Shown piece by piece: positions 1,630 through 20,123 of a stretch of DNA of 20,123 nucleotides (its first letter is position 1; every line of letters begins with the position of its first letter). The notes beneath the pieces were generated by a model. That model worked only from the letters and a program-made list of their open reading frames with translations. It searched no databases and had not been told where the DNA came from. The stretch covers positions 1 through 20,123 of the IMG/VR virus record IMGVR_UViG_3300030106_000005; one strand, written 5' to 3'. This stretch comes from a virus. The translations under genes and the position numbers were made by a program.

Positions 1630-1965
1630 ATGCTAGTTGATATACTGCAAGAAAAGTTAGATAAAAGAAAAAGGAAGTGGTGGGAATGGCACAAAAAAAA
1701 TCCACAGGTTTGGGATAAGTTTGAGGAATACACATTAGAGGCTATCCATAGTGGGAGAAAAAAATACTCACAATGGGCGATCATAAATCGTATCCGTTGG
1801 CACAATGAGATAGAAACAAAGGGTGGTGAGTTTAAGATTAGTAATGATCACATAGGTTTCTATGCAAGACTATTCCAAGCAAGGCATCCACAACACAAAG
1901 ACTTCTTTACACTAAAACCATTGAAAGAAGAAAAAGATATAGCTATGTTAAAGGTTAAGGCTTAG
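1630..1965 (+). CDS. Conserved phage protein of unknown function
   Basis: This 111-aa protein is Trp/Lys-rich and basic at the N-terminus (KRKRKWWEWHKKNP). It contains a pattern I associate with a widespread small phage protein: NPQVWDKFEEYT, then SQWAIINRIRWHNE, then ISNDHIGFYARLF, and a closing HPQHKDFF. No function is known to me for that family. Its basic, aromatic content and place beside the nuclease genes would fit a DNA-binding role, but this is inference. The ATG at 1630 has a strong ribosome-binding site (GGGGGAGA, 1619-1626), so it can be translated independently of RusA. It is the last gene of the + block, and its 3' end overlaps the 3' end of the giant opposite-strand gene by 18 bp. 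Confidence 0.78.
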   Translation: MLVDILQEKLDKRKRKWWEWHKKNPQVWDKFEEYTLEAIHSGRKKYSQWAIINRIRWHNEIETKGGEFKISNDHIGFYARLFQARHPQHKDFFTLKPLKEEKDIAMLKVKA

Positions 1966-4900: not shown

Positions 4901-7900
4901 CTGTTTTCTAATTCTGGAGAATATTGATATGTTGGTTTTATACCACGAAGATCAGCAAGAACTTCTGCTTCTTGTATATATCTATCATAGTTATACATTT
5001 CATCTTCAAGTAAATCTTCTTGACTTTCTGTACGATTAGGCTCACTACCTGGATATAAAAAGTCTCTAAACTCTTTTTCAAATTCAATTTCTAATCTATC
5101 TATTTCTTTTTCTAGTTCTTCACGACTTATATCAGATTCAGTTGCTTCAAGCTCACGCTTTAAATCTTCAATTCGATAATAACTTTCATCAAATTCTTCT
5201 TGTAATTGTTCCAAATCATCTCTTTTATAAATGCCTGAACCAGCATATCCATCTTCAAGAATATCAATATAATCTGGTCTCATTGCTTTTAATAACATAG
5301 GTATATAACCTTTTACTTTGCTCATAGGAACTTCATATCTAAGTATTTCAGGATTCCATGCTTCACCCCTTCTTTGTGATCTGTTAAATAAATTACGACC
5401 TATCGCTAATGCTTCTCTACTATTTAATGTTGTGCTTGCAAATAAATCTTCTGGAAGCTGTCCATAGTTTTTAATTTTCTCACCTTCAGGAATATTTAAA
5501 GCTCTAAATAAAACTAAGTTACCTTTTTTATTTGTAAATTTTTCTAAGAATTTTTTACTAGCTTTTAATAAAGGTCTATTATTTCTACCTTTAAATGCTT
5601 CAACTATAGCCATTTTAAGTGGTGGAGGATTATCTCTGTTACCACCATCCTCTCTACTCGTTTTTAACTGATCTAATATTGAAAAAGTATCAAAACGATT
5701 TCTACTTGCCCAATCAAAAGGAACTTCACTATCATCAGGTACTAAATTAGTTCTACTAAATAAAGGTAACTGTCCTGTGCCAGTTCGTAATTCTTCTAAT
5801 CTTCTTTCTGTTTTAGCAACAACAGCTTCTGCATTATAACGCCTTCTTTCAAGAGTAATTTTTTCATCAGGTCTTAATACATCTTGGAATAATTCTCTTT
5901 CTGTTTTATAAACTAAATTACTATAATAGCTAAGACTATCTTCTAATAATTCTTGGGAGGCAACATTTATTTCTTCTTGTGTTGTTGGAAATCTACTTTG
6001 TGCTCTACTAAAGGTAGGTATATCCTCTACAGCTTTTATTCTTGGGAAATATCCCCATCTTGCCCAGCCATTATTACCATCCCAACGAACATCTCCTGCT
6101 CTTAATTTAAAAGTATGCACCTTTGATGGAGTTCTTTCAGGCATACCAAATATATCCATAATTCCATCCATTTGGTTATATAGTTTTTCTTGTTGTAAAT
6201 CTATTGCACCTGTTTTATCTATTTGTTCTTGCCTTCTTCTAGCTCTATCTGCTTCTCTAATTTCTTCTCTTGTAACTTTAGAATCTTCTACAAGAGCTTC
6301 AGCTTCACTTAAGAATGGAGTTATTAAATCTCCCTCTCTTAAATCTCTTTGTGGTGCAGCTTGATACATAGTTATTTCTGCATTTGGATTGCCTTTAATT
6401 TCTTGTAATTTTCTTAAAAAATCAACTTCTTCTGCTAAACCAAGAAGCATATTTTGATAGTCAGGATTTTCTTTTATTATTTTTAATCCTTCTTCTCTTG
6501 TTGGTGCTGAATCTATAATACGATTTATTGTTGCAAGATTTCCTCTTTGTGTACTAAAATCTTGTAGTCTATCGTAATCTACATTCACACCAAAAGTAGA
6601 ATAACCTTCAGGAGTAAATTCTTCTTGACTAGGTTTTACATTTAAGTCATGTGCAGGTGGACCATATTGTGCAGGTACACCATCAGCTACATGACCAGAT
6701 GATTCATCTCTTGGTGGTCTACTAAATAAAGGCACATCTCTAACATCTCTTGTATCAAGATTAATGCCAGTTGTTTGTAAGTCTAATACTGTAGAAGCAT
6801 TTTTTAAAAATGCAGATAATTCTGTATTAAGTTTTGCAGGTACAGCTAATAATTTTCTAATTGTTTCTACAAATTTATTCCATAAATTACCAGTAGCATC
6901 TTTACCAAATGGTATAGATTCAAGCATTTCTTGAAACTCTCTATTAGTTAAACCGAATGTTAATAGTTCTGAAACATCACCTCTTTTTTGAGATTGATCG
7001 CTATATAACTGATATTTAATGCGATAGTTTTCAAAATTTCTTTTTCTAGCTTTTCTTAAACCAGTTTCTGTTCTAGTAATAATTCCATCACTATATTCTC
7101 GTATATATATATCTGCTATTTCTTTTTCTATTGCAGGAGCTTTAGCATAATTCTCTTTATATATTTCTAAGTTTGTCTGATCACCAGTGCTGACATCTTG
7201 AAGTATTTTATCTGATAAATCTTCATAGAATCTCATCTTACTTCTGTAATGATTTTTAATTCTATTAGCTTGACTTCTTAATTCTTTTTGTGCTTCCAAT
7301 GCTTTAGAGCCACCATCAGGAGATAATTTAGCTAATATACTTGGACTACCTGATGCAGCATAAATTTGAGCTAAGGTAGCTTGATGTATGCTTTCATGTA
7401 ATATAGTTTCAAAATTTACACCATTTTTTAATTTCCAATCTTTATAAGCTTGATCACTAGCTAATGGAATTAAACTATATCCTTTACCATCATCATTTAA
7501 CGACATAGAATAAGTAAAAGGTTGACCAAATTTATCTTCTTTACCTCTAGGATTAATTTGACCTCTAATACGCCCTGTTAAACCATTTGTATCTCCTACT
7601 TTAAAATTTAAAGGAAATGATCTACCTTGTTTTTTTAATGCTAATAAAGATTTATGAACTTTTTGTGCAATAATTTTATAATCTTGACTTGGTGAATTAT
7701 CTATTAACCATTTCATCATTTTTACAGAATCATTATTACCTTTAATAGTTTTAGTTACATTACCATCTTTATCAAAAACATCTTTATCTAATATTTTTGC
7801 ATCTTGTAAACCTTTAATTATTTTTTCTCTTTCAGAATTATATTGTGCATTAGATAATGTACGAGAATTATAAATAGTTGTAGGTGTCGTAGGAGGCGTT

Positions 7901-10900
7901 GTAGGACCTGTTGGTGCAGGTGGCACAGGTGGTGCTGGTTTGGGTTTTGGTATAGTTATAGGTCTCATACCTCTAGGTCTTAGAGTTTGTCTTATCTCAT
8001 CACCAGGAATTGGCTCTGGTGCTCTTATAACTTCATCTCGTTCTTCTGTTGTAAGAAAACTAGCAGGAATACGACCTGCATCTACAAGTCTTGTAGTTCG
8101 CACAACTCCTCTCTCTCTTGCACCAACTCTGCCAGATTCTATATTATTAAATATTTCTGTAGCACTCTTGTAGCCTGAGCTACGCATTGCTTGTCCTGCA
8201 GTTTTAAAGAACTGTATTATCTTATTAAAGATGCCATCTACTTTAGGTGGAGTATTAACTAGTAAATCTTTATTTCTAAACAGTTCTGCTATAGCTTCTT
8301 CTACAATCAAATCCTCTTGTATTGCAGCACTTCTGCCTTGTCTTTCTCTTTTAGTTCTTTCTACAGCTTCATTGTAAAAAGTCCTATTTTTTGGATCATT
8401 AGGAAATTTAGTTGTCTTAGTCATCTTAGTTAGATAACTATATTCAGATTTGTTAATTAAATCTTTTGCCCTAAAAGCATGGATCATTTCATGGTCTAAT
8501 ACTTTTTTAAGTCTTTCTTCTATTTCTACTTCTGTAGCACCACCATCAGGATTAACTGCATTTAAAGATAAAAATATAGTATCTGTATTTTTATCATATT
8601 GTCCTTCTACTGATCCCCTAATTCCTCTTGGATCAAATTTTATTTCTCCATCTACTCTCCTTAATGTGGTGGTAGAAAGTATGTCATCACTTACAACAAT
8701 ACCAGTTTCTCTTAAACCTACAGCGTTTAATCTTTTTCTAAACTCTTTTGCAAACTTATTAACCTTACCTTCTTGCAAAGTCTCAGCATAGTTAATAGTC
8801 TTAGGTTCTATTTCTACAGGTGGTAATAGTCTTTCTTGTTTTGTTCTTTCTTGTTCTACTAATTCTGCAATAGATTCTGCAGGTAATTTGCCTTCTGCAG
8901 TAAGTCTTGCACCAAATTCTTCTGGTGTTTCATTAAACCCTTCTGCTTTTCTAGCTATATCAAACTCAAAGTTATCTCTAATCTTATAGTTATTAGTGCC
9001 TTCTATTTGTTCAGCTCTGCCACTATAAATTAAATCATCTATAAATTGTTTTGTAGCAACCTCATTTTTTCTAATAGAATCTGGTCCAACTTTTAATAAA
9101 GTATTTTTATCAAAAATAATATTGTTGCTTTTTGCATTGGCAACAAAATCTGCCATCTCTTGTGCAGTATAGTTTCTTGGTCTAAAGTCTGGAAAAGTTG
9201 TTCTTGAATTGAACTTTGGAAGTGCATGAAGTTTAGCCAAAAATAGTTCTTTCTGACCTTTCTTCATCTTATTGAACTCAGGAGTACCTGTGTATTTTTC
9301 TGCTGCATATTGAACAGCAGGTGATTGAAAGTTTAAATCTATATTTTTAGATGCAGCTATTTCTTTTACATATTTAGCTGATATATCTATTGTATCTTTA
9401 TCTGCAATAATAGAAGGCTCACCTTTTTTCTCAGAAGCTTTAAATACTCCTTGTGCATATGCAGATGTAAATTCATTAAATTGTTTTGCAGTTAATAATT
9501 GTTTAGCTTCTGCCATAGATAATCTAGGATAACTACGAGAAGTTTTGCCTGGATTTTGTGCAACAAAACTATTTACTAAACCTCTAAGAGTTACCTCTTG
9601 TTTAGAATTTTTAGGCACACTATTAATTAACTGTGAAATAGTTACATCACTAGCTCTACTATCTTCTAAGCTTTGTCCTATCTCATAAGCAGTAGAACTA
9701 TTAATTAATCCTAAGTTATAAGTGTCATTATCTAATTTTGATTTTAATTTTTTATTGTTAAAGTCTTGCGTTATTTTATCTCTAACTTTAATAGCATCTA
9801 TTTCTTTATCTTTTATATCAATTTGTACAGGAGCTTCAGGATTGCTAATATCAACAACAGCAAATTGTTCTTGTGGCGTGACTATAACTTCTACAGATGG
9901 TTCTGCTCCTAGTTCTTCAGGTGCTATTATTTGTGGAACTGTAACAGATGGTATGTCTTGCATTTCTTCAAGCACACCTTGTTCAACAGCTTGATCTTGT
10001 TTCTTCTGAAGTATTAATCTTTGTTTATTTTCTTCAGACCTTAACTCATCTTCTTCTAATTGTTTTCTTCTTGCAGACTGTTTACCAGCCATGCTAGTAA
10101 CAACTAAATCAGCAGCAGAACCAATAATGCCACCAATAGTAAATTCTTCAAACATACTATCAGCCATAGGTAAATCTTCACTATAAAGACCTCTAGCTGT
10201 TAAATCTTGTAATATACTTGCAGCTACCTCTTGTCCACCCTCAAATGCACCAGATTGTAAAGCAGATACTAATCTTTCTTTTGTATTTTTAGGAGCAGAT
10301 TTAGAAACTTTGCCTAATATACTTGCTACAGGTAATACTTCAGTTATACCTATAAGACCACCAAATAGTTCAGCAGTAGTCTCAGTAAGACCACTTACAT
10401 CTTCACCCATCTCTCTAGCCATCTGCAGTCTATCGCCTTGTGCTGCTATACCTGTTGGTATTGCTAAAGCTGTCGGTGCTGTAAATGTTGGTGATAGAAA
10501 GCCTTTAGCTGCTCCTGGTGCCTTTGCTAGAGCTCTACCTACCATACCTGCACCTAAGAAAGGAACAAACGATCCTACGCCTTCTCCTAGTTTTGTAGAA
10601 AATTTATCAGCATATCGTGGGTCTGCTGCTAATACAGAATCTTGTCTTAGTCTATCTTGTAAACCTTCAAGACCTTTATATAAGTTACTATCGTTGCCAA
10701 TATCAAATAAACCAACAATACCTGTAGGCACATCTAAAGCTAAACTAGCAATACCTCTAGGTATCGCTTTACCAAACTCTTTTGCTTGCTCTAGTGCTGA
10801 TGTTTGATTTATATCTATTCCATATTCATCTTTTATAACTTCAGCTAATTTTAATCTTGTTTCAGCATCTAAATTATCTGGAATTTGTATTTTTTTCCCA

Positions 10901-10923
10901 CCACCAATATCATATTCAGTCAT
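1948..10923 (-). CDS. Giant polyvalent virion protein: two zincins, ART-like segments, LPD38-like C-terminus
   Basis: This 2,991-aa protein fills about 45% of the window. It resembles the 'large polyvalent proteins' of phages, multidomain proteins packaged and probably ejected with the DNA. In order: a Gly/Ala-rich hydrophobic N-terminal region (1-285); charged helical linkers; a zincin with HEMIH at 811-815 and EEAIAE at 875-880; a Pro/Thr-rich hinge (about 984-1014); a second HExxH site, HESIH (1176-1180); two ADP-ribosyltransferase-like segments (1519-1628 and about 1804-1895); a coiled coil (about 1896-1975); and a long C-terminal region (about 2091-2991) like Pfam LPD38, with a hydrophobic stretch near 2662-2682. 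Five P-x-F-S-R motifs separate the modules after residue 1397. It is far longer than T7 gp16 (about 1,300 aa) and nearer N4 virion RNA polymerase, but no polymerase motif is seen. The start has no clear ribosome-binding site, and the gene follows the 441-aa gene by 3 bp. Domain calls are by eye. Confidence 0.85.
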   Translation of the reverse strand: MTEYDIGGGKKIQIPDNLDAETRLKLAEVIKDEYGIDINQTSALEQAKEFGKAIPRGIASLALDVPTGIVGLFDIGNDSNLYKGLEGLQDRLRQDSVLAADPRYADKFSTKLGEGVGSFVPFLGAGMVGRALAKAPGAAKGFLSPTFTAPTALAIPTGIAAQGDRLQMAREMGEDVSGLTETTAELFGGLIGITEVLPVASILGKVSKSAPKNTKERLVSALQSGAFEGGQEVAASILQDLTARGLYSEDLPMADSMFEEFTIGGIIGSAADLVVTSMAGKQSARRKQLEEDELRSEENKQRLILQKKQDQAVEQGVLEEMQDIPSVTVPQIIAPEELGAEPSVEVIVTPQEQFAVVDISNPEAPVQIDIKDKEIDAIKVRDKITQDFNNKKLKSKLDNDTYNLGLINSSTAYEIGQSLEDSRASDVTISQLINSVPKNSKQEVTLRGLVNSFVAQNPGKTSRSYPRLSMAEAKQLLTAKQFNEFTSAYAQGVFKASEKKGEPSIIADKDTIDISAKYVKEIAASKNIDLNFQSPAVQYAAEKYTGTPEFNKMKKGQKELFLAKLHALPKFNSRTTFPDFRPRNYTAQEMADFVANAKSNNIIFDKNTLLKVGPDSIRKNEVATKQFIDDLIYSGRAEQIEGTNNYKIRDNFEFDIARKAEGFNETPEEFGARLTAEGKLPAESIAELVEQERTKQERLLPPVEIEPKTINYAETLQEGKVNKFAKEFRKRLNAVGLRETGIVVSDDILSTTTLRRVDGEIKFDPRGIRGSVEGQYDKNTDTIFLSLNAVNPDGGATEVEIEERLKKVLDHEMIHAFRAKDLINKSEYSYLTKMTKTTKFPNDPKNRTFYNEAVERTKRERQGRSAAIQEDLIVEEAIAELFRNKDLLVNTPPKVDGIFNKIIQFFKTAGQAMRSSGYKSATEIFNNIESGRVGARERGVVRTTRLVDAGRIPASFLTTEERDEVIRAPEPIPGDEIRQTLRPRGMRPITIPKPKPAPPVPPAPTGPTTPPTTPTTIYNSRTLSNAQYNSEREKIIKGLQDAKILDKDVFDKDGNVTKTIKGNNDSVKMMKWLIDNSPSQDYKIIAQKVHKSLLALKKQGRSFPLNFKVGDTNGLTGRIRGQINPRGKEDKFGQPFTYSMSLNDDGKGYSLIPLASDQAYKDWKLKNGVNFETILHESIHQATLAQIYAASGSPSILAKLSPDGGSKALEAQKELRSQANRIKNHYRSKMRFYEDLSDKILQDVSTGDQTNLEIYKENYAKAPAIEKEIADIYIREYSDGIITRTETGLRKARKRNFENYRIKYQLYSDQSQKRGDVSELLTFGLTNREFQEMLESIPFGKDATGNLWNKFVETIRKLLAVPAKLNTELSAFLKNASTVLDLQTTGINLDTRDVRDVPLFSRPPRDESSGHVADGVPAQYGPPAHDLNVKPSQEEFTPEGYSTFGVNVDYDRLQDFSTQRGNLATINRIIDSAPTREEGLKIIKENPDYQNMLLGLAEEVDFLRKLQEIKGNPNAEITMYQAAPQRDLREGDLITPFLSEAEALVEDSKVTREEIREADRARRRQEQIDKTGAIDLQQEKLYNQMDGIMDIFGMPERTPSKVHTFKLRAGDVRWDGNNGWARWGYFPRIKAVEDIPTFSRAQSRFPTTQEEINVASQELLEDSLSYYSNLVYKTERELFQDVLRPDEKITLERRRYNAEAVVAKTERRLEELRTGTGQLPLFSRTNLVPDDSEVPFDWASRNRFDTFSILDQLKTSREDGGNRDNPPPLKMAIVEAFKGRNNRPLLKASKKFLEKFTNKKGNLVLFRALNIPEGEKIKNYGQLPEDLFASTTLNSREALAIGRNLFNRSQRRGEAWNPEILRYEVPMSKVKGYIPMLLKAMRPDYIDILEDGYAGSGIYKRDDLEQLQEEFDESYYRIEDLKRELEATESDISREELEKEIDRLEIEFEKEFRDFLYPGSEPNRTESQEDLLEDEMYNYDRYIQEAEVLADLRGIKPTYQYSPELENRKVALITDVPLFSRKRRDDTGTNSQENIQLREALAEAEETVKQTPRGSIPYYNLNASDTALKAAIDFNKDLSATAPDDIPKFSRPTLDNIDPNIAEAAERLGGEHRPDVSWGARTIEAVKDPVTSISNVFKNFRTNFVDKLDAVEKKIMQAKEDNEDVRLANNTADTATMAALRLADRARGLFAGLLTRGYVTDVIDGQAALANIKDLELENGETGGLVQILAPLYGNPDVNLEQVFKLYATLKRAKTFDETGKEIDTPVRPEDFALIEQIEQQHPEVVEVYNNYQRWNNRLIEFAENKGLLDPEQAQMWRTHSSYYPFYKQMIDDADIQGPRIAGGSLPNNPLSIKITGSEKPIDADPIEAISRNSLSILTAALKNDGTAKLLRDLQSIGEARKVSAKQAGRLNTIFVFEDGIKQYYQLDDVNLFHGIQAIGGTSVGPIAQALAMPAGLLRDTVTRDPGFVVVNILRDTLSSAVTSGAPYTPFVDSVKNMFGEMENLEKFGVLGGYDFANDEGSVKQFITRTMRQKGLTPNNGMSASGAFFKLWDGLGALTTKSDGATRMAVYDAVYKKLKNEGYTEAQAQSEAAFQGLEIINFGRRGLDTNFRIVTAAIPFLNARIQGLDVLYRGFTGQYSSVEKLGEGETLKDVQSRIMRRALLNGGLLSGLTLLYYLMVHDTDEYKNLKREVRDDNWVIPIGSGNAVKIPIPFEVGMLFKAIPERVFDMTLGDDAFTRKSADEALTSITRQLGTSANIPFFQPGAGLQLIKPIAEVRANRNSFTDTEIVPYYQQQKEPALQARATTNEFARIMGEFLNVSPAKIEHIMRGYTGTLGGYVLAVVDTITRGATGSPLLPSNFELNKLPVINRLLLDLDKSGGYQQQFYELRGEVDRAVATINSLQKQQRFDELSAYRSNMQGVLNVKGQVRAIERYLDNWRKRRDRLMRDENISVSVKSDMLRELELERDMRLAMVPELRKRANIPVLSLNL
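1951..4653 (-). other. LPD38-like C-terminal region of the giant protein
   Basis: Residues about 2091-2991 form a long, mostly helical region with stretches I associate with Pfam LPD38 (large polyvalent protein-associated domain 38), such as RDPGFVVVNILRDTLSSAV and VIPIGSGNAVKIPIPFEVG. A hydrophobic segment (LLNGGLLSGLTLLYYLMV) lies near residues 2662-2682. It may anchor or insert the protein in a membrane during ejection; that role is inference. Confidence 0.55.
5230..5514 (-). other. ADP-ribosyltransferase-like segment 2 of the giant protein
   Basis: Residues about 1804-1898 contain VLFRAL with Arg1807, then ASTTL (1829-1833) where R-S-E ART enzymes carry S-T-S, then strands RYEVPMSKVKGYIPML. 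No clear E-x-E motif follows. The first two elements fit an ART fold; the missing third leaves the call tentative. Confidence 0.4.
6040..6369 (-). other. ADP-ribosyltransferase-like segment 1 of the giant protein
   Basis: Residues 1519-1628 begin MYQAAPQRDLREGDLITPF and end KVHTFKLRAGDVRWDG ... WGYFPR. This head-and-tail pattern recalls ART-fold modules of phage proteins, which usually start V-Y-R-A with a catalytic Arg. Here the Arg position is Gln1521, so the segment may be inactive in NAD binding. The fold call rests on pattern resemblance only. Confidence 0.35.
7384..7398 (-). other. Zincin-like HExxH site 2 of the giant protein
   Basis: Residues 1176-1180 read HESIH in the context FETILHESIHQATL, close to the LHEAxHAAT helix of many phage zincins. 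It is preceded by a strand-rich stretch (KGYSLIPLAS) and followed by a helical region. A third zinc ligand is not obvious, so activity is less certain than for site 1. Confidence 0.5.
8284..8493 (-). other. Zincin metallopeptidase site 1 of the giant protein
   Basis: Residues 811-815 read HEMIH, matching HExxH, where two His bind zinc and Glu is the general base. Downstream EEAIAELF (875-882) offers the acidic third ligand found in gluzincin-type sites. The preceding strand DTIFLSLNAV and the helix leading to DHEMIHAF are typical of phage-encoded peptidase domains. Confidence 0.65.
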
Positions 10924-12252: not shown

Positions 12253-13439
12253 TATGATAATCCCTTATAAAGTCCAAGTCCCTGCAGTCCCATACCTAAA
12301 GCTGACTGAAATAATCCTGGTTGTTGTTGATAAGTGCTTACTTGTTGCTGTGGTTGAACAGGCACACCTCTTAGTAATCCACCTAAGAAACCTAATTGAT
12401 CTCTGGTAAATCCTTGTTGTCTTAAAAAGTCTTGATAACCCATATCTAAAGAAGCTTGTTGCATACCTCTTTGTTGTGAGCCAATACCTTGTAATGCTGC
12501 AATTCTTTGCCTTGTATCATCTTGTATATCACGACCAACACCTCTTAAAGCATCTATAGATTCTAAGCCATATTTTTGTGTCATACCATATGCACTTTGA
12601 GCAAATTTTTCCTCTGCTTGTCTTGCTGCTTCATTTTGTTGATCAGCAGTTAAACCTAATTTAGCTGCTGCTTGTCTAGCTTTTTCACCTGCATCATAAG
12701 CTCTTTGTCTAAATGCTTCTTCTGCTTGTCTTGATTTCTCGCTAACACCAAATTGTTGTAGTCCAAATTGTGCTCCTTTTAATTCAGCAGCTCTCTCTCT
12801 TTCAAGTTGTTGTAGTGCTGATTGATAACCAGCTTGACTACCTCTTGCTTGTATATCATCTAACTGTTGTCCTAAATTACGCTCTCTTTCTGCTTGCATT
12901 ATAGCTTCACGATAGCCACCTAAACCACCTGATCTAGTAGCTGCATCTGCAGTTTTATCACCTAACATTTCTGATTGTCTTAGAGCTTCTCTTTTTTGTA
13001 TATCTATAACATTTTGTTGATATGGAGACATAAACCTTTGTAGGTTTTCTTCAAAACCTAAAGGCACATATTGCTCACCAACATTACCAGCTCCATACAT
13101 TGATGTTATATCTCTAGGATCATATGAAGATTGTGTAGTCATTGCATCATATCCAGAACCATATGGTCCACCTAACATAGCTGCTCTTTGTGAAGCTACA
13201 TCAAACTCAAAAGGTGATCCTGATTGTGCATAACCTCTAGTCATAGCCTGTGATGTTAATTCATCTGGTGAAAAATAAGCTATTCTTTCGCCACCATAAG
13301 GTGTATATGGCTGATTAGATTCAGCTTCTCCTCTTTTGAGTAGTCTCTCAAAATAAGGTTGTACATATTCTGGTAAATCAGTCTGAGTTACCCTTGTTTC
13401 TGTTGGTGCTGCTGGTGCACTTCTACTTCTACCACCCAT
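12252..13439 (-). CDS. Gln/Ala-rich virion structural protein (395 aa)
   Basis: This protein opens with a polar Tyr/Pro/Gly-rich region (DLPEYVQPYFERLLKRG, YTPYGGERIAYFSPDE). From about residue 130 to 345 it becomes a long Gln/Ala/Glu/Arg-rich helical region, probably coiled coil (for example QAGYQSALQQLERERAAELK). It ends in a glycine-rich amphipathic tail (LFQSALGMGLQGLGLYKG). Such long helical, Gln-rich proteins in podoviruses are often internal core or ejection proteins, and its place before the giant protein supports this. That is inference, as no domain is recognised. GAGGA lies before the start, and the start and stop share TAATG with both neighbours, so expression is probably coupled. 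Confidence 0.7.
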   Translation of the reverse strand: MGGRSRSAPAAPTETRVTQTDLPEYVQPYFERLLKRGEAESNQPYTPYGGERIAYFSPDELTSQAMTRGYAQSGSPFEFDVASQRAAMLGGPYGSGYDAMTTQSSYDPRDITSMYGAGNVGEQYVPLGFEENLQRFMSPYQQNVIDIQKREALRQSEMLGDKTADAATRSGGLGGYREAIMQAERERNLGQQLDDIQARGSQAGYQSALQQLERERAAELKGAQFGLQQFGVSEKSRQAEEAFRQRAYDAGEKARQAAAKLGLTADQQNEAARQAEEKFAQSAYGMTQKYGLESIDALRGVGRDIQDDTRQRIAALQGIGSQQRGMQQASLDMGYQDFLRQQGFTRDQLGFLGGLLRGVPVQPQQQVSTYQQQPGLFQSALGMGLQGLGLYKGLS

Positions 13440-13906
13440 TATTTACTATCCTCAAATTCATATTCAAAAAATATTGATGTTTTCTGCCAATTATTTTTTG
13501 ATTTTATCCAATTCCAAAAACCTTCTCTGCCAACGCCTTCTACGCCATCACAGTCATTGGCTTTTGCCCATTTATATATAACTTCTAAACTTCTGTCTGC
13601 CCATTCATTCATTTTTTTACCAGCTACATGATCAATATTTAACATTCTTTTGCCAGTAGGATATTGACTTATTTTAGTAATAGCACAACCTATAATATTT
13701 AAAGTTTCTGTATCAAATATAATCCATAAAGAACAAACATTTCTTATGCAATCATAAAATATATCTTTAGTAGTTGCTCTACCATTAGAACGATTACAAG
13801 ATTTTTGTAAAAACTTTTCACAATCATCCCATACCAAAGTAATTCTATCGCTTGGCATTAATGATATATCAAATTCTTCTTTTATTTTTTCTGCTACTTC
13901 ATTCAT
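13439..13906 (-). CDS. GNAT-like protein (T7 gp13-like type)
   Basis: This 155-aa protein looks like the small GNAT-fold proteins found among podovirus virion genes. A helix with DRITLVWDDCEKFL is followed by strands SLWIIFD (59-65), IIGCAITKI (71-79) and MLNIDHVAG (88-96), then a helix EWADRSLEVIYKWAKANDC. It closes with the characteristic VGREGFWNWIKSKNNW. GNAT enzymes transfer acyl groups from acyl-CoA, but the usual R/Q-x-x-G-x-G/A pyrophosphate loop is not clear (HVAGKKMNEW occupies that place). A catalytic role is therefore doubtful, and a structural or assembly role as for T7 gp13 is possible. It overlaps the 795-aa gene by 4 bp (ATGA) and has no own ribosome-binding site, so it is probably made by coupling. 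Confidence 0.6.
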   Translation of the reverse strand: MNEVAEKIKEEFDISLMPSDRITLVWDDCEKFLQKSCNRSNGRATTKDIFYDCIRNVCSLWIIFDTETLNIIGCAITKISQYPTGKRMLNIDHVAGKKMNEWADRSLEVIYKWAKANDCDGVEGVGREGFWNWIKSKNNWQKTSIFFEYEFEDSK

Positions 13907-16290
13907 ACTGGTAATACTTTATTTGGATTTATACGACCTGCTTGTTTAGTCGTGCCTGTTTTTTCTGTTCTAACTCTATCTAACATAGCATCTAATTGTT
14001 TAGAACCAGCATCAGAGCTGCCATCTCCTAACATAGATACAACATCTGCAGGAATAATATACTCATCTTGTGATACAGCAGCAGCAGTTGTATCTGCTCC
14101 TATTGACATAGGTAAGTCATCAGCCATGCCACTATTGCCATTGCCTCTAATTAACCCTTCAGTTTGTACATCTAAATTGCCTGCAGCTTGTCTTAGTATT
14201 TGATCTCGCAATATCATAAATTGTTCTTGTCCATACTTAACAATAAACTCATTTACAATGTCGCTATTATCAGTTTCTCCTAAAATAAACTGTATAGTTT
14301 CTTGTACTATAGGGTCTTGCATCATATCTGTTGATTGACCAGTAGGCATATTTACATCTTGACCTTCTTGATAACCCATTGCTTTTACAGCTTCTCTACC
14401 TTTTTCTGTTTTAGCTAAAGCTTTTAATCCTTCATTAGGTAATTCTTTATCGGTATCTCCACCTTCTGCAAACATAGGTGCACTAAACATAGGAGTATTA
14501 GTCATAGGTCTAATACCAAATGGTTGCATTGGTGTATTATCTGGTGCTGCTGGTGTAGGTGGTGTAAATACAGGTCCTCTTTCATTAAATGTAGGACTGC
14601 CACCTGCAAATACTCTATTATCATTAAAACCACCACCTGGTCCACCTATTGACATTGAAGGTGCTGGTTTAGTTACAGGCATTTCTACAGGTATAGTTAC
14701 ATCTGCTCCACCTTCAATAGGTATAGTAATAGTTTCTGGAGATTGATCGTATATAGTTCCACCCTCTGGTAAAGGTTTAGCAAAATCTATTGGATTAGGT
14801 CTAGGCATACTTGGTGGTTTACCACCAAATATATCTTCATCTCCTGGTCCAGTTATTGGTAACTCACTTAGGTTAGGTAAACTAGGTGTGGGCATAGGAT
14901 CAGGTACTGGTCTATTAATCATTTCAGGATATACAAACTCATCACCAGTATCAACTGGAGAGGGATTAAAAGCTCCACCTTTTGGAGATGGTGCTGGTCC
15001 ACCAACATTTGGTGGTGGTGTTATTGAGTCTGGTGGTGGTGTAGATATTGGTCCTTCTCCTGGTCCACCTATTGATGGTGGAGCAGGTGGTCTTACTGGT
15101 TGTTCAAATATTGGAAATGGCATAGGCTGTTGTACAAATCTAGCATATGGATTTAAAATTTGTTGCATTTGTGGAGTACCATAAAATGTTTGATAAGTTG
15201 GAGACTGCATAAATGGATTACCATATCCTGCAAACATAGGTGGTCTACCAAATCTAGGTCCTCTTTCATTAGGTGGTCTACTAAATCTTGGTCCTCTCAT
15301 TCCATATGAACTAGCAACTGGTCTATTAAATCCTAAATCAGTTGCAGTTGGATTTATATTTTCAAAATATGCAAACTCAGGTTGAAAACCTGGCATAAAA
15401 CCTCTAGGTATAGTTGTTGGTGCCCTACGAGCAGGTAAATTATACACACCTGTTAAGTTTGGAACAGGATTATAAGGATTAAATCCTACATTAATATTAC
15501 GACCTCTTTGAAAACCTACTTTACCACCATCAGCCATAGGTATTTGTTCAGGATATCTTTCATACATTAATCTTTTTCTTTCTTCTTCATCAATATCCAT
15601 TTGAGCTAACATTCTTTCAAATTCTTCTTGTGATTGCATAACACTTGCTGTACCTGCTGCAGTTCCTGCTAACATACCAGTTGGTTCCATTGCAGCTCCT
15701 GCTAATGATTGCATACCTGCATCAAGACCTCTATCACCAAACATAGTTCCAAATGATTCACGAGGTGTAAATCCTCTAAAATCACCTGCAGCATTAAATC
15801 CAAGCTTAGAGCCTTCTTGTGCAGCTTGTATTGCAGCATCTCTAGCTCCTTGTTCTGCTACTTGTATTGATAAATCTGTTGCTTTAGGTAATGTTGCTGC
15901 ATCTATTCCTGCTTGTGTTGCTGCATCTGCACCTACTGCAGTTTCTGCTGCACCACTTAAAGCTTTTGTTCCTAATCCTGCTGTAAGACCAGATAGTAAT
16001 GCTTTAGAACCAGAACCACCTGTTTGTGCATAAGTGGCTAAACCTGCTCCTATTCCAGCCATGGCTCCTGCTGATAAACCTGTTCCAGCTAATAAAGTAG
16101 GTGCTAATAAACTTCCTAACATAGGTGCTAAAAAAGGTAAGAAAGCTTCAGGCTGTCCTGTCTCTGGATTTACTGTCAATGGCATAGCAGATGCTAATCC
16201 TTTAACTTCTGCAGGATTAACATGAAGTAACATAGAATCGCCAAAACGACCTTGTGCTGCTACGTTCTTAGTTTGTTGTTTTATATCCAT
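13903..16290 (-). CDS. Gly/Pro-rich virion protein (795 aa)
   Basis: The order is: a polar N-terminus with SMLLHVNPAEVKGL; a Gly/Ala-rich hydrophobic segment (about 51-118); MADGGKVGFQRG at 252-263; a long Pro/Gly-rich low-complexity middle (about 264-640) with internal repeats; and a conserved C-terminus. That C-terminus includes IRGNGNSGMADDLPMSIG and QDEYIIPADVVSMLGDGS, which resembles a module of many podovirus virion proteins. The Pro-rich middle suggests an extended, flexible protein. No enzyme motif is seen. GAGGAAG precedes the start, and the gene directly abuts the 113-aa gene (TAG then ATG). It is probably a tail-associated or internal virion component; the exact role is unknown. 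Confidence 0.72.
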   Translation of the reverse strand: MDIKQQTKNVAAQGRFGDSMLLHVNPAEVKGLASAMPLTVNPETGQPEAFLPFLAPMLGSLLAPTLLAGTGLSAGAMAGIGAGLATYAQTGGSGSKALLSGLTAGLGTKALSGAAETAVGADAATQAGIDAATLPKATDLSIQVAEQGARDAAIQAAQEGSKLGFNAAGDFRGFTPRESFGTMFGDRGLDAGMQSLAGAAMEPTGMLAGTAAGTASVMQSQEEFERMLAQMDIDEEERKRLMYERYPEQIPMADGGKVGFQRGRNINVGFNPYNPVPNLTGVYNLPARRAPTTIPRGFMPGFQPEFAYFENINPTATDLGFNRPVASSYGMRGPRFSRPPNERGPRFGRPPMFAGYGNPFMQSPTYQTFYGTPQMQQILNPYARFVQQPMPFPIFEQPVRPPAPPSIGGPGEGPISTPPPDSITPPPNVGGPAPSPKGGAFNPSPVDTGDEFVYPEMINRPVPDPMPTPSLPNLSELPITGPGDEDIFGGKPPSMPRPNPIDFAKPLPEGGTIYDQSPETITIPIEGGADVTIPVEMPVTKPAPSMSIGGPGGGFNDNRVFAGGSPTFNERGPVFTPPTPAAPDNTPMQPFGIRPMTNTPMFSAPMFAEGGDTDKELPNEGLKALAKTEKGREAVKAMGYQEGQDVNMPTGQSTDMMQDPIVQETIQFILGETDNSDIVNEFIVKYGQEQFMILRDQILRQAAGNLDVQTEGLIRGNGNSGMADDLPMSIGADTTAAAVSQDEYIIPADVVSMLGDGSSDAGSKQLDAMLDRVRTEKTGTTKQAGRINPNKVLPV
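15239..15304 (-). repeat. 33-bp imperfect tandem duplication
   Basis: Two adjacent 33-bp units begin with GGTGGTCTAC (15239 and 15272) and differ at only a few positions. They encode repeated R-G-P-R-F-(S/G)-R-P-P (residues around 332-351 of the 795-aa protein). The unit length is a multiple of three, so the frame is kept. Confidence 0.7.
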
Positions 16291-16632
16291 CTATCTATCT
16301 TCCTCTTTGGTTTCACAGCCAAACATATTAAAACTCATGTCAACTGCACTTGTATAAACTTTTACTACATCTGTTTGATTTAAGGTTATGCCTAAAACAA
16401 TAGCAAAAGAATCATTTGCTGCTACTGATTTATCATAAAAAAGAAACTGCTTATCATCAGCAGTTGCACCAGCAACATGAACACTTAATCTAAATGTTAT
16501 TGCTGATCCTGTTCTATTTGCTGCAACTATTGAACTTACTGTTGTTTGTGTCATATCAGGACAGGTATAAAGTGTAGTAGTTGTAGTTGCTGCTGGGTCT
16601 ACTTGACCTAAAACTTTTAAATTATCAGCCAT
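16291..16632 (-). CDS. Small beta-rich virion protein
   Basis: This 113-aa protein is Thr/Ala/Val-rich and strand-forming. Its pattern recurs in marine podovirus and cyanophage virion genes: KVLGQVDPAATTTTTLYTCP, then VSSIVAANRTGSAITFRLSV, then KQFLFYDKSVAANDSFAIVL, ITLNQTDVVKVYTS and SFNMFGCE. This predicts a compact beta-sandwich, probably a decoration or tail-associated subunit. No enzyme motif is present. GGGA lies upstream of the start, inside the preceding gene, with which it overlaps by 8 bp. The structural role is inferred from family resemblance and from its place between tail and other virion genes. Confidence 0.72.
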   Translation of the reverse strand: MADNLKVLGQVDPAATTTTTLYTCPDMTQTTVSSIVAANRTGSAITFRLSVHVAGATADDKQFLFYDKSVAANDSFAIVLGITLNQTDVVKVYTSAVDMSFNMFGCETKEEDR

Positions 16633-16828
16633 GTTTCATTCCCATTAATAAAAATTGTTGTCTCTTTATAGCTTTGCTTGATACAACATCTTGCAATCTA
16701 CTTAATCTACTAACTTCAGTAGCTAAATCCTGTATAGCTTGTTCTGTAATTCTTCTTGATACTGTTTCTTCTGTAGCATCATATTCTTGTCTAGGTATTG
16801 GTAATACTATAGTTTTAGGATGTGCCAT
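16625..16828 (-). CDS. Small coiled-coil virion-operon protein
   Basis: This 67-aa protein has a short N-terminal extension (MAHPKTIVLPIPRQEY) and then a single amphipathic helix (about 20-62) with regular hydrophobic spacing (ITEQAIQDLATEVSRLSRLQ), suggesting an oligomeric coiled coil. It ends KRQQFLLMGMKHG. It shares TAATG with the tail gene upstream and overlaps the 113-aa gene, so it is probably translated by coupling; its own ribosome-binding site is weak. It may be a small adaptor or tail-fibre-associated helix, but the function is unknown. Confidence 0.65.
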   Translation of the reverse strand: MAHPKTIVLPIPRQEYDATEETVSRRITEQAIQDLATEVSRLSRLQDVVSSKAIKRQQFLLMGMKHG

Positions 16829-18678
16829 TATCTTTTACCATCTGGTCTTATATCTAATCTTACATCACCTAATCGCCAACCATAATCATTTGATGAATTA
16901 GATACTCTTATTGCACATTGTCTGCTTCTAGCTCTAGTATTAGTAAATGTAGAAGCTGGAGTGACTGAAACAGTTGATAATGTTGATAAATCTTCTAAAG
17001 GATAGTTTCTACCTTTTATAGTAATAGTTACATCATCAGTTGTTGATTGCTGATCTCTAAACTGTACATCAGGTATTATACTATTAACTGCTATAAATTT
17101 TTCTCCATCTGGGTCTAAATCAAAATCACTTGATTCTATAAATGCAGTAAAATCAGCACCATCATCACCATGACCTATTTCATGTCTATAAATATAATTA
17201 CTATTGCTTGTGCTACTATTTTTACTTGCAGCTATAGGGTTAGTTAATATTAATGCTTGATCCCAAGCTGTTCTTACAAAATTATCTGATGTTGTACCAA
17301 TAGACCAAACTTGTTCTAAATAATTATATAAAACATATCTATCTACTTCTGAACTATTTTTTGAAGGATAAAACCACATAATTTCATTAGCACTATCATT
17401 TACAGCACCAAATATTTTAAACGCTTGTCCTTGATTAAGATCACTTAAAACATAATCTAAAACTGTGCATGGTAATCTTTGTGCAGAACCTGAGTAAACA
17501 TAGAATCCACCATTATCCATAAAGTAAACACTATTATTTGCACTAACTGCTGCATTTGGAGATATTAAAGAAGGACCATGTGCAACTTCATTAAAAGAAA
17601 AAACAAATGGTGCTCCTACAAACCTCATAGAGATAATACCTGCATCTGTCCAGATAAGTATTTCTTGTCTTGTTTGTAATGCTCCTATAATAATAGAACC
17701 CATAGAAAGTTGCACACCACCAGCTTGATTAGTTGCAGTTGGTGTCCAGTCAGTAATACTTTCTGTATCTGAAAATCTTACTAATAAAGGGTCTAAAGTT
17801 GATGATCCTACTGGATTACATCCAAAAGTTATAACATGACGATCTACATCAGATACCATTGTTTGTAAAGCTACTGTTGGAACATCGCTTGCTCCACTTA
17901 AAGATGTAGCATTTACAGCTCTAGTGCTTGTTCCTGATGATTCATCCCAATAAAATATACCGCCTGCTCTTGGATTTAAAACTGTATCATCTCCAAAATT
18001 ATCTATAGACCACAATCTAAGCTGATTAGTAAATGATAAAGATGTTGATGATCCCCATGTTCCTGCTCCCCATGTTCCTGCTCCCCAACCTGTAGATTGC
18101 ACATATGAATCTAAACCAGAATTAAGTTGATATACAGCATCTGCTGCAGAACCACCATTACCAGTATCACTAGAATTTGCAGTAGCAGTTGCAGTAAATG
18201 TAAAAGTATTAGCATTTGGAACAGTATCTATTTGATATTCTTGATTTAAAACTGCAGCAGTAATATTACCACCTAAACTTACAGCTTCACTTATAGTAAC
18301 AAAATCACCTGTTACAGCTCCATGACTGCTATCAGTTGCAGTTATTGTTGTAGAGCCATTAGTAGCTGCAAAAGTAATACCATTTGTTGTTGTAGCTCTT
18401 ATAGGAGTTACATCAGCATATTGATTACCTTCTAATACATAAAATTTTTGATGTGTTCCAAGAGTAATATAATTAGAACCATCTGCAGCTTTATAGGTAT
18501 GTATCTTTCTTGATGTGCCAATAAAACTATCAGTACTTTGTTTTTGCCAACCACCTATTCTTTCAGGTCTACCTTTACGAAATCTAACTTTATCTGCATC
18601 AAACCAGCCACCTTCATTACTATAGTTGGTGCCTTCTTTATTTATTCCTGGTCTAAATACATATTTTCTTAATGGCAT
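16828..18678 (-). CDS. Tail hub/nozzle protein, P22 gp10 / T7 gp12-like
   Basis: This 616-aa protein opens with LRKYVFRPGINKEGTNY and GGWFDADKVRFRKGRPERIG, which resembles the P22 gp10 'phage stabilisation' family (Pfam PF11134). In P22 that protein forms the tail hub beneath the portal; T7 gp12 is the functional counterpart. The rest is beta-rich, with VGAPFVFSFNEVAHGP and SVYFMDNGGFYVY expected of a propeller-like fold. Residues about 82-165 are a Thr/Ala-rich strand insert resembling small beta repeats found in phage tails. A GAGTWG repeat lies at 197-209. It is longer than P22 gp10 (472 aa), mainly through that insert. GAGG precedes the start, and the gene follows the endolysin stop by 2 bp. 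The choice between gp10-like and gp12-like is unresolved. Confidence 0.75.
   Translation of the reverse strand: MPLRKYVFRPGINKEGTNYSNEGGWFDADKVRFRKGRPERIGGWQKQSTDSFIGTSRKIHTYKAADGSNYITLGTHQKFYVLEGNQYADVTPIRATTTNGITFAATNGSTTITATDSSHGAVTGDFVTISEAVSLGGNITAAVLNQEYQIDTVPNANTFTFTATATANSSDTGNGGSAADAVYQLNSGLDSYVQSTGWGAGTWGAGTWGSSTSLSFTNQLRLWSIDNFGDDTVLNPRAGGIFYWDESSGTSTRAVNATSLSGASDVPTVALQTMVSDVDRHVITFGCNPVGSSTLDPLLVRFSDTESITDWTPTATNQAGGVQLSMGSIIIGALQTRQEILIWTDAGIISMRFVGAPFVFSFNEVAHGPSLISPNAAVSANNSVYFMDNGGFYVYSGSAQRLPCTVLDYVLSDLNQGQAFKIFGAVNDSANEIMWFYPSKNSSEVDRYVLYNYLEQVWSIGTTSDNFVRTAWDQALILTNPIAASKNSSTSNSNYIYRHEIGHGDDGADFTAFIESSDFDLDPDGEKFIAVNSIIPDVQFRDQQSTTDDVTITIKGRNYPLEDLSTLSTVSVTPASTFTNTRARSRQCAIRVSNSSNDYGWRLGDVRLDIRPDGKR
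18053..18087 (-). repeat. Two perfect 15-bp tandem repeats plus a partial third
   Basis: CCCCATGTTCCTGCT occurs at 18053-18067 and 18068-18082, and CCCCA follows at 18083. On the coding strand this gives GWGAGTWGAGTWG (residues 197-209) in the tail hub protein. The repeat is in frame. Confidence 0.85.
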
Positions 18679-18680
18679 AT

Positions 18681-19136
18681 TTAAACCTCATGCCATTCTT
18701 TACCTTCAAATAGTAAAGATTCTGCTAATCTTCTTCGCTCTAAACCTGGCAAGACTACTTTCTCTCCATTAACTCTTGCCTTATTCCATTTACGCATTTG
18801 ATGTGGAACTTCATCTTTTTTATTTTCGTTTAAAACTCTTAACATAGTGCTACTATTTAGGTTTGTAGGACCTAAGTTATAAGTCCAAGCTACTAAAGCA
18901 TCAAATTCATTTTGTTCTAATGGCACAGTTACAGCACTATTTACATAAGCACCATAAACTGGTAATTCTTCTTCTAGCCATTTTTCTGCTTGTTCTTGTG
19001 TGCAAGTATCTCCTTCTTTTACATCTTTAGTTCGACCAAATGCTATGGTCCATTTTCCTGCACTACATTTATAAGCTTCAAGCTCACAACCTTCAAACTT
19101 TTTAATAAGCTGTTTGCCTTCTTCTGATATTTCCAT
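18681..19136 (-). CDS. Endolysin, GH24 (T4-type) lysozyme
   Basis: This 151-aa enzyme would cut the N-acetylmuramic acid/N-acetylglucosamine bond of peptidoglycan at lysis. The GH24 signature is clear: KKFEGCELEAYKCSAGKWTIAFG (broken here for reading: E15 in KKFEG, C24 in AYKCSAG, T30 in KWTIAFG). It aligns with the T4 Glu11-Asp20-Thr26 triad at the same spacing, with Cys in place of Asp. The domain continues with FDALVAWTYNLGPTNL and ends GLERRRLAESLLF, all typical. It has no N-terminal signal or SAR segment, so it should need the adjacent holin to reach the wall. The ATG at 19136 is chosen over an in-frame start at 19193 because a strong ribosome-binding site lies just upstream and the family homology begins here. 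Confidence 0.92.
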   Translation of the reverse strand: MEISEEGKQLIKKFEGCELEAYKCSAGKWTIAFGRTKDVKEGDTCTQEQAEKWLEEELPVYGAYVNSAVTVPLEQNEFDALVAWTYNLGPTNLNSSTMLRVLNENKKDEVPHQMRKWNKARVNGEKVVLPGLERRRLAESLLFEGKEWHEV

Positions 19137-19137
19137 T

Positions 19138-19617
19138 TTACTCTCCTTTATCGCTTGTGTGAGATGCTCCAAAATAGAATGAAATAATCGCACTTGCTAA
19201 TCCCCCTAAATATCCTAATACTAGATTTATAAGAGCTTCGCTATTTTGTTCTGGTGGCTGTAGTGTTACTAAAAAAATATAACCTAAAAATCCACCAATA
19301 GTAAATAAACCTATAATTCTTGCTGTCCAATCTTTGCTAAACATACCTCTAGCGTGTTGTTTATCTTGTGTTTCTAACTTAAATATATCTACATCTAACT
19401 CTTTCATTTGAACTTCAAATTCTTGTTCAGCTTTTTTAAGTTCCATCATTTGTTCTGGTGTAGCACTTTGTAAAGCTTGCTGTATAGATTTTTGATCATT
19501 TGATACGCCTAATACTTCTGCTATCTTACCCATAGCCATGCCACCTAAAGGACCACTTAAAGCAGTTCCTATTGTTGGTGCTACTGTACTAACTAAATTT
19601 TTTAATATCCCTTTCAT
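19138..19617 (-). CDS. Holin (GTA-type 3TM holin-like)
   Basis: This 159-aa protein has a hydrophobic Gly-rich N-terminal helix (about 4-37: LVSTVAPTIGTALSGPLGG). A charged coiled coil follows (57-84), then two membrane segments (about 101-119, RIIGLFTIGGFLGYIFLVT, and 129-150, LINLVLGYLGGLASAIISF). The arrangement matches the three-segment holins first named from gene transfer agents (Pfam GTA_holin_3TM). Such proteins make the inner-membrane lesion that releases the endolysin, and the endolysin starts one base after this stop codon. The start has AGGA (19625-19628) at good spacing, embedded in the end of the cyclase gene. The holin call rests on topology and neighbour; the family match is by eye. 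Confidence 0.8.
   Translation of the reverse strand: MKGILKNLVSTVAPTIGTALSGPLGGMAMGKIAEVLGVSNDQKSIQQALQSATPEQMMELKKAEQEFEVQMKELDVDIFKLETQDKQHARGMFSKDWTARIIGLFTIGGFLGYIFLVTLQPPEQNSEALINLVLGYLGGLASAIISFYFGASHTSDKGE
19141..19147 (-). promoter_or_regulatory. Ribosome-binding site that fixes the endolysin start
   Basis: On the coding strand AGGAGAG lies 4 bases before the ATG at 19136 (6 bases counting AGGAG alone). It is embedded in the last codons of the holin gene, so endolysin translation is tied to holin translation. Confidence 0.75.
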
Positions 19618-19626
19618 AATACTTTC

Positions 19627-20123
19627 CTACCTTAATGTATATATAGCTAATTTATGTTTTTTGCCTTTTACAGATATTGGTTTTAGTAATTTTAACTTAA
19701 AACTACAATGTTTTTTAGTGTTATGACCTATGATTAAATCAACACCTACATCTTTGGTAGCACTTTCAAGTCTAGCTGCTGTATTTACAGCGTCACCTAT
19801 TGCACTATAATCAAAGCGTGTATCACTTCCCATATTACCTATTATCGCTTCTCCTGAGTTTACCCCTATACCTATGTCTATTCCTAGATTGGCTTGCTCC
19901 ATATCTGCCTGTATTTTCTGTGCTGCTAATATGGCTTTATTCTCATGCTCTTTTAAATCTATAGGTGCATTAAATATAGCCATCATCGCATCACCTATAT
20001 ACTTATCTACCATACCACCATACTCTTTTACTGCATTAGCTTGTATAGTTAAAGCTCTGTTCATAATATGAGTAACTTCTTCTGGCTCTAGTTTTTCTGA
20101 CAAACTTGTAAACCCTCTTACAT
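19627..20123 (-). CDS. Class III adenylate cyclase catalytic domain (partial, N-terminus outside window)
   Basis: The frame is open to the right edge and reads VRGFTSLSEKLEPEEV just before and through base 20103, so the protein begins outside the window; the TTG at 20103 is not the start. Numbering from 20103, the visible residues include K34 (DKYIGDAMM), the second metal ligand D38, D98 (RFDYSAIGD), N107 and R111 (VNTAARLE). In class III cyclases the Lys/Asp pair selects adenine and the Asn/Arg pair stabilises the transition state. The first metal Asp should be the codon split by the window edge (?-A-T, so GAT is possible). It probably makes cAMP from ATP as a dimer. The C-terminus ends in a normal domain end (VKGKKHKLAIYTL). 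It is 9 bp upstream of the holin and carries that gene's ribosome-binding site. An N-terminal sensor or membrane part may exist outside the window. Confidence 0.9.
   Translation of the reverse strand, partial: VRGFTSLSEKLEPEEVTHIMNRALTIQANAVKEYGGMVDKYIGDAMMAIFNAPIDLKEHENKAILAAQKIQADMEQANLGIDIGIGVNSGEAIIGNMGSDTRFDYSAIGDAVNTAARLESATKDVGVDLIIGHNTKKHCSFKLKLLKPISVKGKKHKLAIYTLR

Follow-up and report, generated by a model that had tools for sequence, protein, structure and literature searches.

A CHASE2 receptor-type adenylate cyclase at the end of a phage curli cassette, a putative envelope sensor in ocean phages

Results

A cyclase gene truncated at the contig end

The stretch of DNA analysed here, referred to as the window, is a virus record of 20,123 bases. 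Its minus strand contains an open frame of 164 codons, which enters at the right edge (position 20121) and ends in a stop at 19627 (19627..20121); at the composition of the window, such a frame has a chance probability of approximately 2e-5. The translation begins VRGFTSLSE and reads on to the stop, matches PF00211 (8.3e-16) and is 99% identical to the protein of a related contig, L002. It represents the C-terminal 164 amino acids of a CHASE2 - class IIIb adenylate cyclase. Approximately 415 residues are cut off by the contig end, comprising a transmembrane segment, the CHASE2 domain, further transmembrane segments, a linker and the first metal-binding Asp. Measured against full-length relatives of about 580 amino acids, the window holds roughly the C-terminal 30% of the protein and not a lone domain. 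Solved class III cyclases match the full-length form of the 99%-identical relative (down to 2.7e-31).

Two contigs continue where the window ends. L002 is colinear with window positions 15945-20123 (93.5% DNA identity over 4.2 kb) and extends rightward past the window end. Colinearity with the 31-kb contig G024 (locus L071/L309) begins at the first gene of the window and extends through the cyclase, and this contig holds the whole missing part. The window cyclase is thus a phage gene truncated by the contig end, and the sensor half and the gene cassette described below are known from these two relatives, as the window stops before both. An earlier note on this DNA had reported an intact-looking class III cyclase domain, which is borne out by the Pfam match, the open frame and a dN/dS of approximately 0.09 against L002, L003 and L004; the frameshift that the note had named as a possible objection did not turn up. 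Among the relatives, dN/dS has a median of 0.13 in the cyclase and of 0.17 in CHASE2; these low values indicate that both halves are maintained. Given the intact active sites, the low dN/dS and the complete lack of stop codons in the aligned part of 83 cyclase copies, a degenerate passenger gene was ruled out.

Relatives are encoded on at least 591 viral contig stretches. Judged from its sequence, the window gene is real, intact-looking, phage-borne and widespread. It can no longer be called unusual for a phage, as it had been initially, in view of this number and of the published cyclase in such a cassette (PMC9599517).

Three genes follow downstream, all on the minus strand: a holin-like gene of phrog_1544 with C-terminal membrane segments in its product (19138..19617, 1.6e-26), an endolysin gene of the phage lysozyme type (18681..19193, PF00959, 2.4e-42) and a gene for a virion structural ('stabilization') protein (16828..18678, phrog_3287, 2e-73). 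The virion protein resembles proteins of phage DSL-LC04 (39%) and Pelagibacter phage HTVC023P (32%), and by these matches shows the contig to be that of a tailed phage.

Three further genes of the window deserve mention. The product of a minus-strand gene at 1948-10923, which makes up 45% of the window, has 2991 aa and carries at its C-terminus the LPD38 domain of large polyvalent proteins (PF18857, 3e-36); over approximately 1000 aa, it shares 57% identity with its counterpart of 2776 aa in G024. A small group of opposite-strand genes at the left end includes a RecA-dependent (Ref-like) nuclease at 904-1215 on the plus strand (PF16786, 9e-21). The 155-aa protein encoded at 13439-13906 (minus strand) has no family match, is 87% conserved in G024 and weakly similar (23%) to a protein encoded near gp80 in HTVC023P; on visual inspection, it looks like an acetyltransferase-type protein.

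Active site and subclass

K34, D38, N107 and R111 (numbering of the earlier note) are present in the window and invariant in the relatives, except that N107 is replaced by Ser in phage Melnitz. The following counts refer to 83 aligned copies, including the window and two cultured phages, and to 63 loci fetched via csgG, with a few contigs occurring in both sets. The second metal-binding Asp, D460, is found in 83/83 and 63/63 copies; it corresponds to D38 of the window, where it is the sole metal Asp visible. The base-selecting Lys and the transition-state Arg each occur in 146/146 copies, and the transition-state Asn in 145/146. The earlier note had proposed to look beyond the right end for the first metal Asp and an N-terminal domain, and both exist: the former, D416, is an Asp in every copy that covers this position, and relatives carry the CHASE2 half. 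The final two bases of the window (AT) are compatible with the end of a GAT codon, which places the first metal Asp just outside.

In class III cyclases, the second base-selecting residue sits seven positions before the transition-state Asn. Class IIIb adenylate cyclases show the pattern Lys plus Thr or Ser, and Asp is found in other subclasses. D98, originally assigned as adenine selector, is nine residues before N107 and hence two residues too early; the correct position is S100. This position is Ser or Thr in 145/146 copies (82/83 and 63/63), and P. aeruginosa CyaB (3r5g) aligns with a Thr here in a ...DY-T... pattern. The adenine pair is therefore Lys/Ser, i.e., of the class IIIb type, and not Lys/Asp, while the other four catalytic assignments of the earlier note stand. 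The protein family thereby combines the hallmarks of class III and IIIb enzymes, namely two metal Asp, a Lys and Ser/Thr adenine pair, and the transition-state Asn and Arg. From these residues, the substrate is likely ATP.

The Melnitz cyclase (L083, 7702-9750) is the only copy in which Ser replaces the Asn and Asp occupies the second base-selecting position; it may be altered in activity or inactive.

A CHASE2 receptor architecture

Full-length relatives consist of an N-terminal hydrophobic segment, a CHASE2 domain, further hydrophobic segments, a short linker and the cyclase. In four of them, CHASE2 (PF05226) is detected with 3e-22 to 6e-28. The L002 protein, for example, has 580 aa, matches CHASE2 (2e-25) and cyclase (2e-18) models, and exhibits hydrophobic segments at 4-26 and 291-341 according to hydropathy. 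CHASE2 is located between membrane segments and N-terminal to the cyclase in these relatives, which is the arrangement of a CHASE2 receptor cyclase. An AlphaFold model of the full protein had a mean pLDDT of 54, which is too poor to use and uninformative on a FecR-CHASE2 contact. The term CHASE2 is absent from the descriptions of the phage cassette in PMC9599517, PMC9004378 and PMC7029224, where the enzyme is named only adenylate cyclase. That the cyclase is, by its domain composition, a CHASE2 receptor is new here.

The curli cassette as constant genomic context

Beyond the right end of the window, the relatives reveal a cassette in the fixed order csgF - csgG - curlin-like - fecR - CHASE2/cyclase, with the cyclase last. 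Synteny was counted in the closest 80 loci of each search, a biased sample of non-independent contigs, and wherever enough DNA was available, FecR (66/66), CsgG (40/40), curlin (40/40) and CsgF (35/35) were encoded upstream of the cyclase on the same strand. Starting from phage csgG, curlin (70/70), FecR (70/70) and the CHASE2-cyclase (63/63) follow downstream. All relatives with enough DNA have the four genes upstream, including L002 and G024. The upstream order in L004 is nuclease, small membrane proteins, CsgF (PF10614, 3e-19), CsgG (PF03783, 2e-47), curlin-like repeat protein and FecR (PF04773, 2e-9), and neighbouring genes overlap or abut. The curlin-like repeat protein of L004 has no Pfam match; its homologue in HTVC008M is annotated as CsgB. 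Curlin-like repeats are present in this gene, and the export of an amyloid fibre is predicted. The cassette is shared by two cultured phages, HTVC008M (SAR11 phage) and Melnitz (OM43 phage), in which a second curlin-like gene joins it.

Ahead of csgF, L004 (5229-5779) encodes a pair of neighbouring small membrane proteins that both belong to phrog_18771; HTVC008M and Melnitz have relatives of them in the corresponding position. The phrog_18771 proteins may correspond to what has been published as histidine kinase in other phages, or may form an unrecognised part of the cassette. In L098, a DNA-methyltransferase-like ORF (1694-2857) lies between fecR and the CHASE2-cyclase; the contig was binned as Neomarinimicrobiota and also carries phage-type replication genes.

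The lysis genes show no such constancy. A holin-like gene occurs within 1 kb downstream of the cyclase in 25/53 loci and upstream of csgF in L034, L045, L065 and L068. An endolysin gene is located at most 2.5 kb downstream in 31/53 loci. Neither is a constant partner, and no constant linkage with holin, endolysin or spanin genes that would define membership of a lysis operon was found. The earlier note had placed the cyclase in a phage late operon and proposed to search related contigs for the same gene beside holins. Its description of the visible neighbours holds, and about half of the loci do have a holin-like gene downstream, but the constant neighbours, csgF, csgG, curlin and fecR, lie past the right end of the window. 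The implied tie to lysis is not upheld, with an endolysin after the cyclase in 31/53 loci versus FecR before it in 66/66. The misreading arose because the contig ends inside the cyclase gene.

FecR and CHASE2 in bacteria, and the origin of the phage gene

In alphaproteobacteria, FecR is encoded within approximately 4 kb of 19 out of 40 CHASE2 genes, compared to 0 out of 20 control regions from the same genomes (Fisher p = 8e-5, loci being phylogenetically non-independent). Of these CHASE2 genes, 37/40 carry a cyclase, and bacterial FecR may be undercounted, as the FecR model was built from phage sequences. CsgG was found beside none of the 40 alphaproteobacterial loci, so the curli link is seen in phages only, as published. 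This suggests FecR-CHASE2 as a bacterial sensor pair in its own right, which is new here, and the phage cassette looks like this pair joined to a curli exporter. In L175, a TPR/SlipAM outer-membrane-type gene accompanies FecR and the CHASE2-cyclase. The same sensor pair with another output is seen in L192 (3938-8808, Pelagibacter-family genome G044), where a CHASE2-SpoIIE protein (PP2C phosphatase), a 435-aa protein and FecR are encoded in a row.

The viral CHASE2-cyclases form one clade (100/100) beside alphaproteobacterial ones under midpoint rooting, and this tree fits one acquisition. The closest 'bacterial' matches, L097-L101, carry the phage cassette, and L097 a terminase as well; most simply, they are phage contigs in MAG bins.

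A further match labelled as Acinetobacter phage (H7) was rejected as a phage cyclase because ordinary chromosomal genes surround it. H7 and H8, from the same organism and with the same score, are the records CAKLQH020000011.1 and CAKLQF020000009.1 ('Acinetobacter phage MD-2021a'); the one inspected, H7, has the isc cluster, mfd and ppiD around cyaA and is thus likely a mislabelled bacterial contig. KC465899.1 / NC_020484.1 are further records named beside these two.

cAMP machinery of phages and likely hosts

The window shares only one virion protein with HTVC023P (32%), although other cassette carriers such as G003 share terminase (56%) and capsid (66%) with this phage. The likely hosts of cassette carriers are Pelagibacter-like and have hardly any cAMP machinery; for the phage of the window, such a host is a candidate. 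We screened 197 genomes of the family of a MAG named Candidatus Pelagibacter (G027), many of which are incomplete. A class I cyclase was found in 0/197. A class III cyclase above the cut-off occurred in 2/197, once on the phage contig L097 and once on the short contig L135, whose protein falls inside the viral clade. Cyclic-nucleotide-binding domains were detected in 11/197 genomes and are CRP-sized in 3. No cyclic-nucleotide receptor (PF00027) was found in 28 cassette-bearing phage records. With none in the phages and few in the Pelagibacter-family genomes, the pathway appears without a visible output.

Discussion

Genes for csgF and csgG in phages have been described by Zaragoza-Solas et al. 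2020 (PMC7029224) and Buchholz et al. 2022 (PMC9004378). Wittmers et al. 2022 reported that pelagiphages of the HTVC023P type and myovirus pelagiphages carry a curli/T8SS cluster that includes FecR and adenylate cyclase, and that this cluster is transcribed in the ocean, has an alphaproteobacterial origin and has moved between phage families (PMC9599517). The window gene is therefore a further member of a published kind. Our literature search on phage-encoded adenylate cyclases returned nothing relevant. As the finding is largely published, what remains of interest is the architecture of the sensor and a messenger that has no visible receiver.

Published cassettes (HTVC023P-type podoviruses, pelagimyophages, HTVC008M, Melnitz) and those of the window's group agree in the order csgF-csgG-curlin-fecR-(second curlin)-adenylate cyclase, and the cyclases of the window, HTVC008M and Melnitz fall into one viral clade. 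The window's group differs in that the cassettes inspected lack the second curlin gene; it has small membrane proteins before csgF, and the virion genes of the window are only distantly like those of HTVC023P, with the one shared protein.

From the architecture, residues, synteny, selection and single viral clade we infer the following model, towards which we lean: the phage encodes an inner-membrane receptor cyclase within a curli cassette, where FecR and CHASE2 sense a signal that is turned into cAMP. The enzyme would be a homodimeric class IIIb cyclase in the cytoplasm, anchored in the inner membrane with CHASE2 in the periplasm, and would make cAMP from ATP. CsgG and CsgF would form an outer-membrane pore that exports the curlin-like protein. 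Together with CHASE2, FecR would act as a periplasmic sensor of the state of this pore, of the exported curlin or of an external ligand, and would switch the cyclase on. The infected cell would then learn from the resulting cAMP that the fibre or pore is assembled or that a signal is present outside.

The switching step is modelled on Sinorhizobium meliloti, where the inner-membrane cyclases CyaK and CyaD answer a protein ligand via the barrel NsrA (PMC13001267, PMC7529298). CyaD1, CyaD2 and CyaK share the CHASE2-cyclase architecture of the phage enzyme, read their signal through this outer-membrane protein and have a FecR gene, SMc02177, near (PMC5498481, PMC7529298, PMC13001267). The locus tag of this FecR-domain gene adjoins that of cyaD1 (SMc02176), and plasmid-borne CyaD1 without CHASE2 makes cAMP constitutively (PMC5498481). 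The FecR gene is dispensable for perceiving the plant signal (PMC5498481), which weakens the analogy on that point. The systems also differ in their surroundings: in S. meliloti, the outer-membrane sensor is known and Clr, of the CRP family, serves as receptor; the phage cassette instead combines CsgG/CsgF with curlin, and no cAMP receptor is known for it.

A role of the cyclase as a lysis-timing device of the holin/endolysin operon comes near the initial picture and has in its favour the endolysin close behind it in the window and in 31/53 loci, as well as the lysis role that Buchholz et al. proposed for the CsgGF pore (PMC9004378). We consider it unlikely: 22/53 loci, HTVC008M and Melnitz among them, have no downstream endolysin although FecR, CsgG and CsgF are always present, and the position of the holin-like gene relative to the cyclase varies. 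By analogy to gammaproteobacterial cAMP-CRP-CsgD, cAMP could also regulate curli production itself, as argued by Wittmers et al. from the common cassette (PMC9599517). These phages have no CsgD (PMC9599517), and with PF00027 in 0/28 phage records and in 11/197 Pelagibacter-family genomes, only three times CRP-sized, we hold this reading to be improbable. That the gene belongs to a host, at an assembly or prophage boundary, had been named as a refutation of the phage reading; this cyclase class is indeed common in bacteria, and the gene sits at a contig end. The colinear 31-kb phage contig with the gene in its interior, the at least 591 viral stretches, the phage cassette on L097-L101 and the single viral clade refute it.

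The cyclase domain also matches the PycC profiles of PADLOC (best 5e-28), from which one might suspect that it acts as counter-defence or decoy against cyclic-nucleotide defence, or that the phage carries a cyclase of the Pycsar type. Window cyclase and PycC do share the class III fold, and the match reflects no more than this. The Lys/Ser base selection points to ATP, other base-selecting residues being expected in PycC; a CHASE2 receptor domain is attached; and no effector with a cyclic-nucleotide sensor adjoins the phage-borne gene, the neighbours always being FecR and Csg genes and PF00027 occurring in 0/28 records. Both versions are thus very improbable, and the suggestion that the phage feeds or tricks such a defence finds no backing. 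A related suggestion, that the phage raises host cAMP or acts on host cyclic-nucleotide signalling, fares better in its first half: making cAMP is plausible, but an effect on host signalling would be doubtful in a Pelagibacter-like host (class I cyclase in 0/197, CRP-sized proteins in 3).

Returning to the receptor cyclase model, cAMP would hardly take the usual CRP route in Pelagibacter-like hosts. Possible outputs are a receptor of another kind, release from the cell, or ATP consumption in itself. In S. meliloti, CyaK is switched on through NsrA by ribosomal protein L2 that occurs free in cell extracts (PMC7529298). By analogy, the cassette might serve as the envelope-to-cytoplasm sensor of the phage, in which curli pore and FecR report an outside event, e.g., debris of lysed neighbours, via cAMP, in hosts almost without a cAMP system; the message would be read by a phage or host receptor or released to other infected cells. 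We regard this extended version as speculative and assign it a low probability.

Of the accessory gene sets in ocean phages that still lack an explanation, curli cassettes are one of the most widespread. Proposals so far comprise sibling capture, superinfection exclusion, an uptake pore and a lysis pore, with the cyclase treated as an add-on. The cyclase of this lineage occurs just as constantly as the pore, and FecR is the partner of CHASE2 in bacteria, too. A constant CHASE2 cyclase, its FecR partner and likely hosts that are poor in cAMP machinery imply that any model of the cassette needs a sensing step and a cAMP output. The question can be tested in cultured cassette carriers, namely HTVC008M on HTCC1062 and Melnitz on OM43 H5P1.
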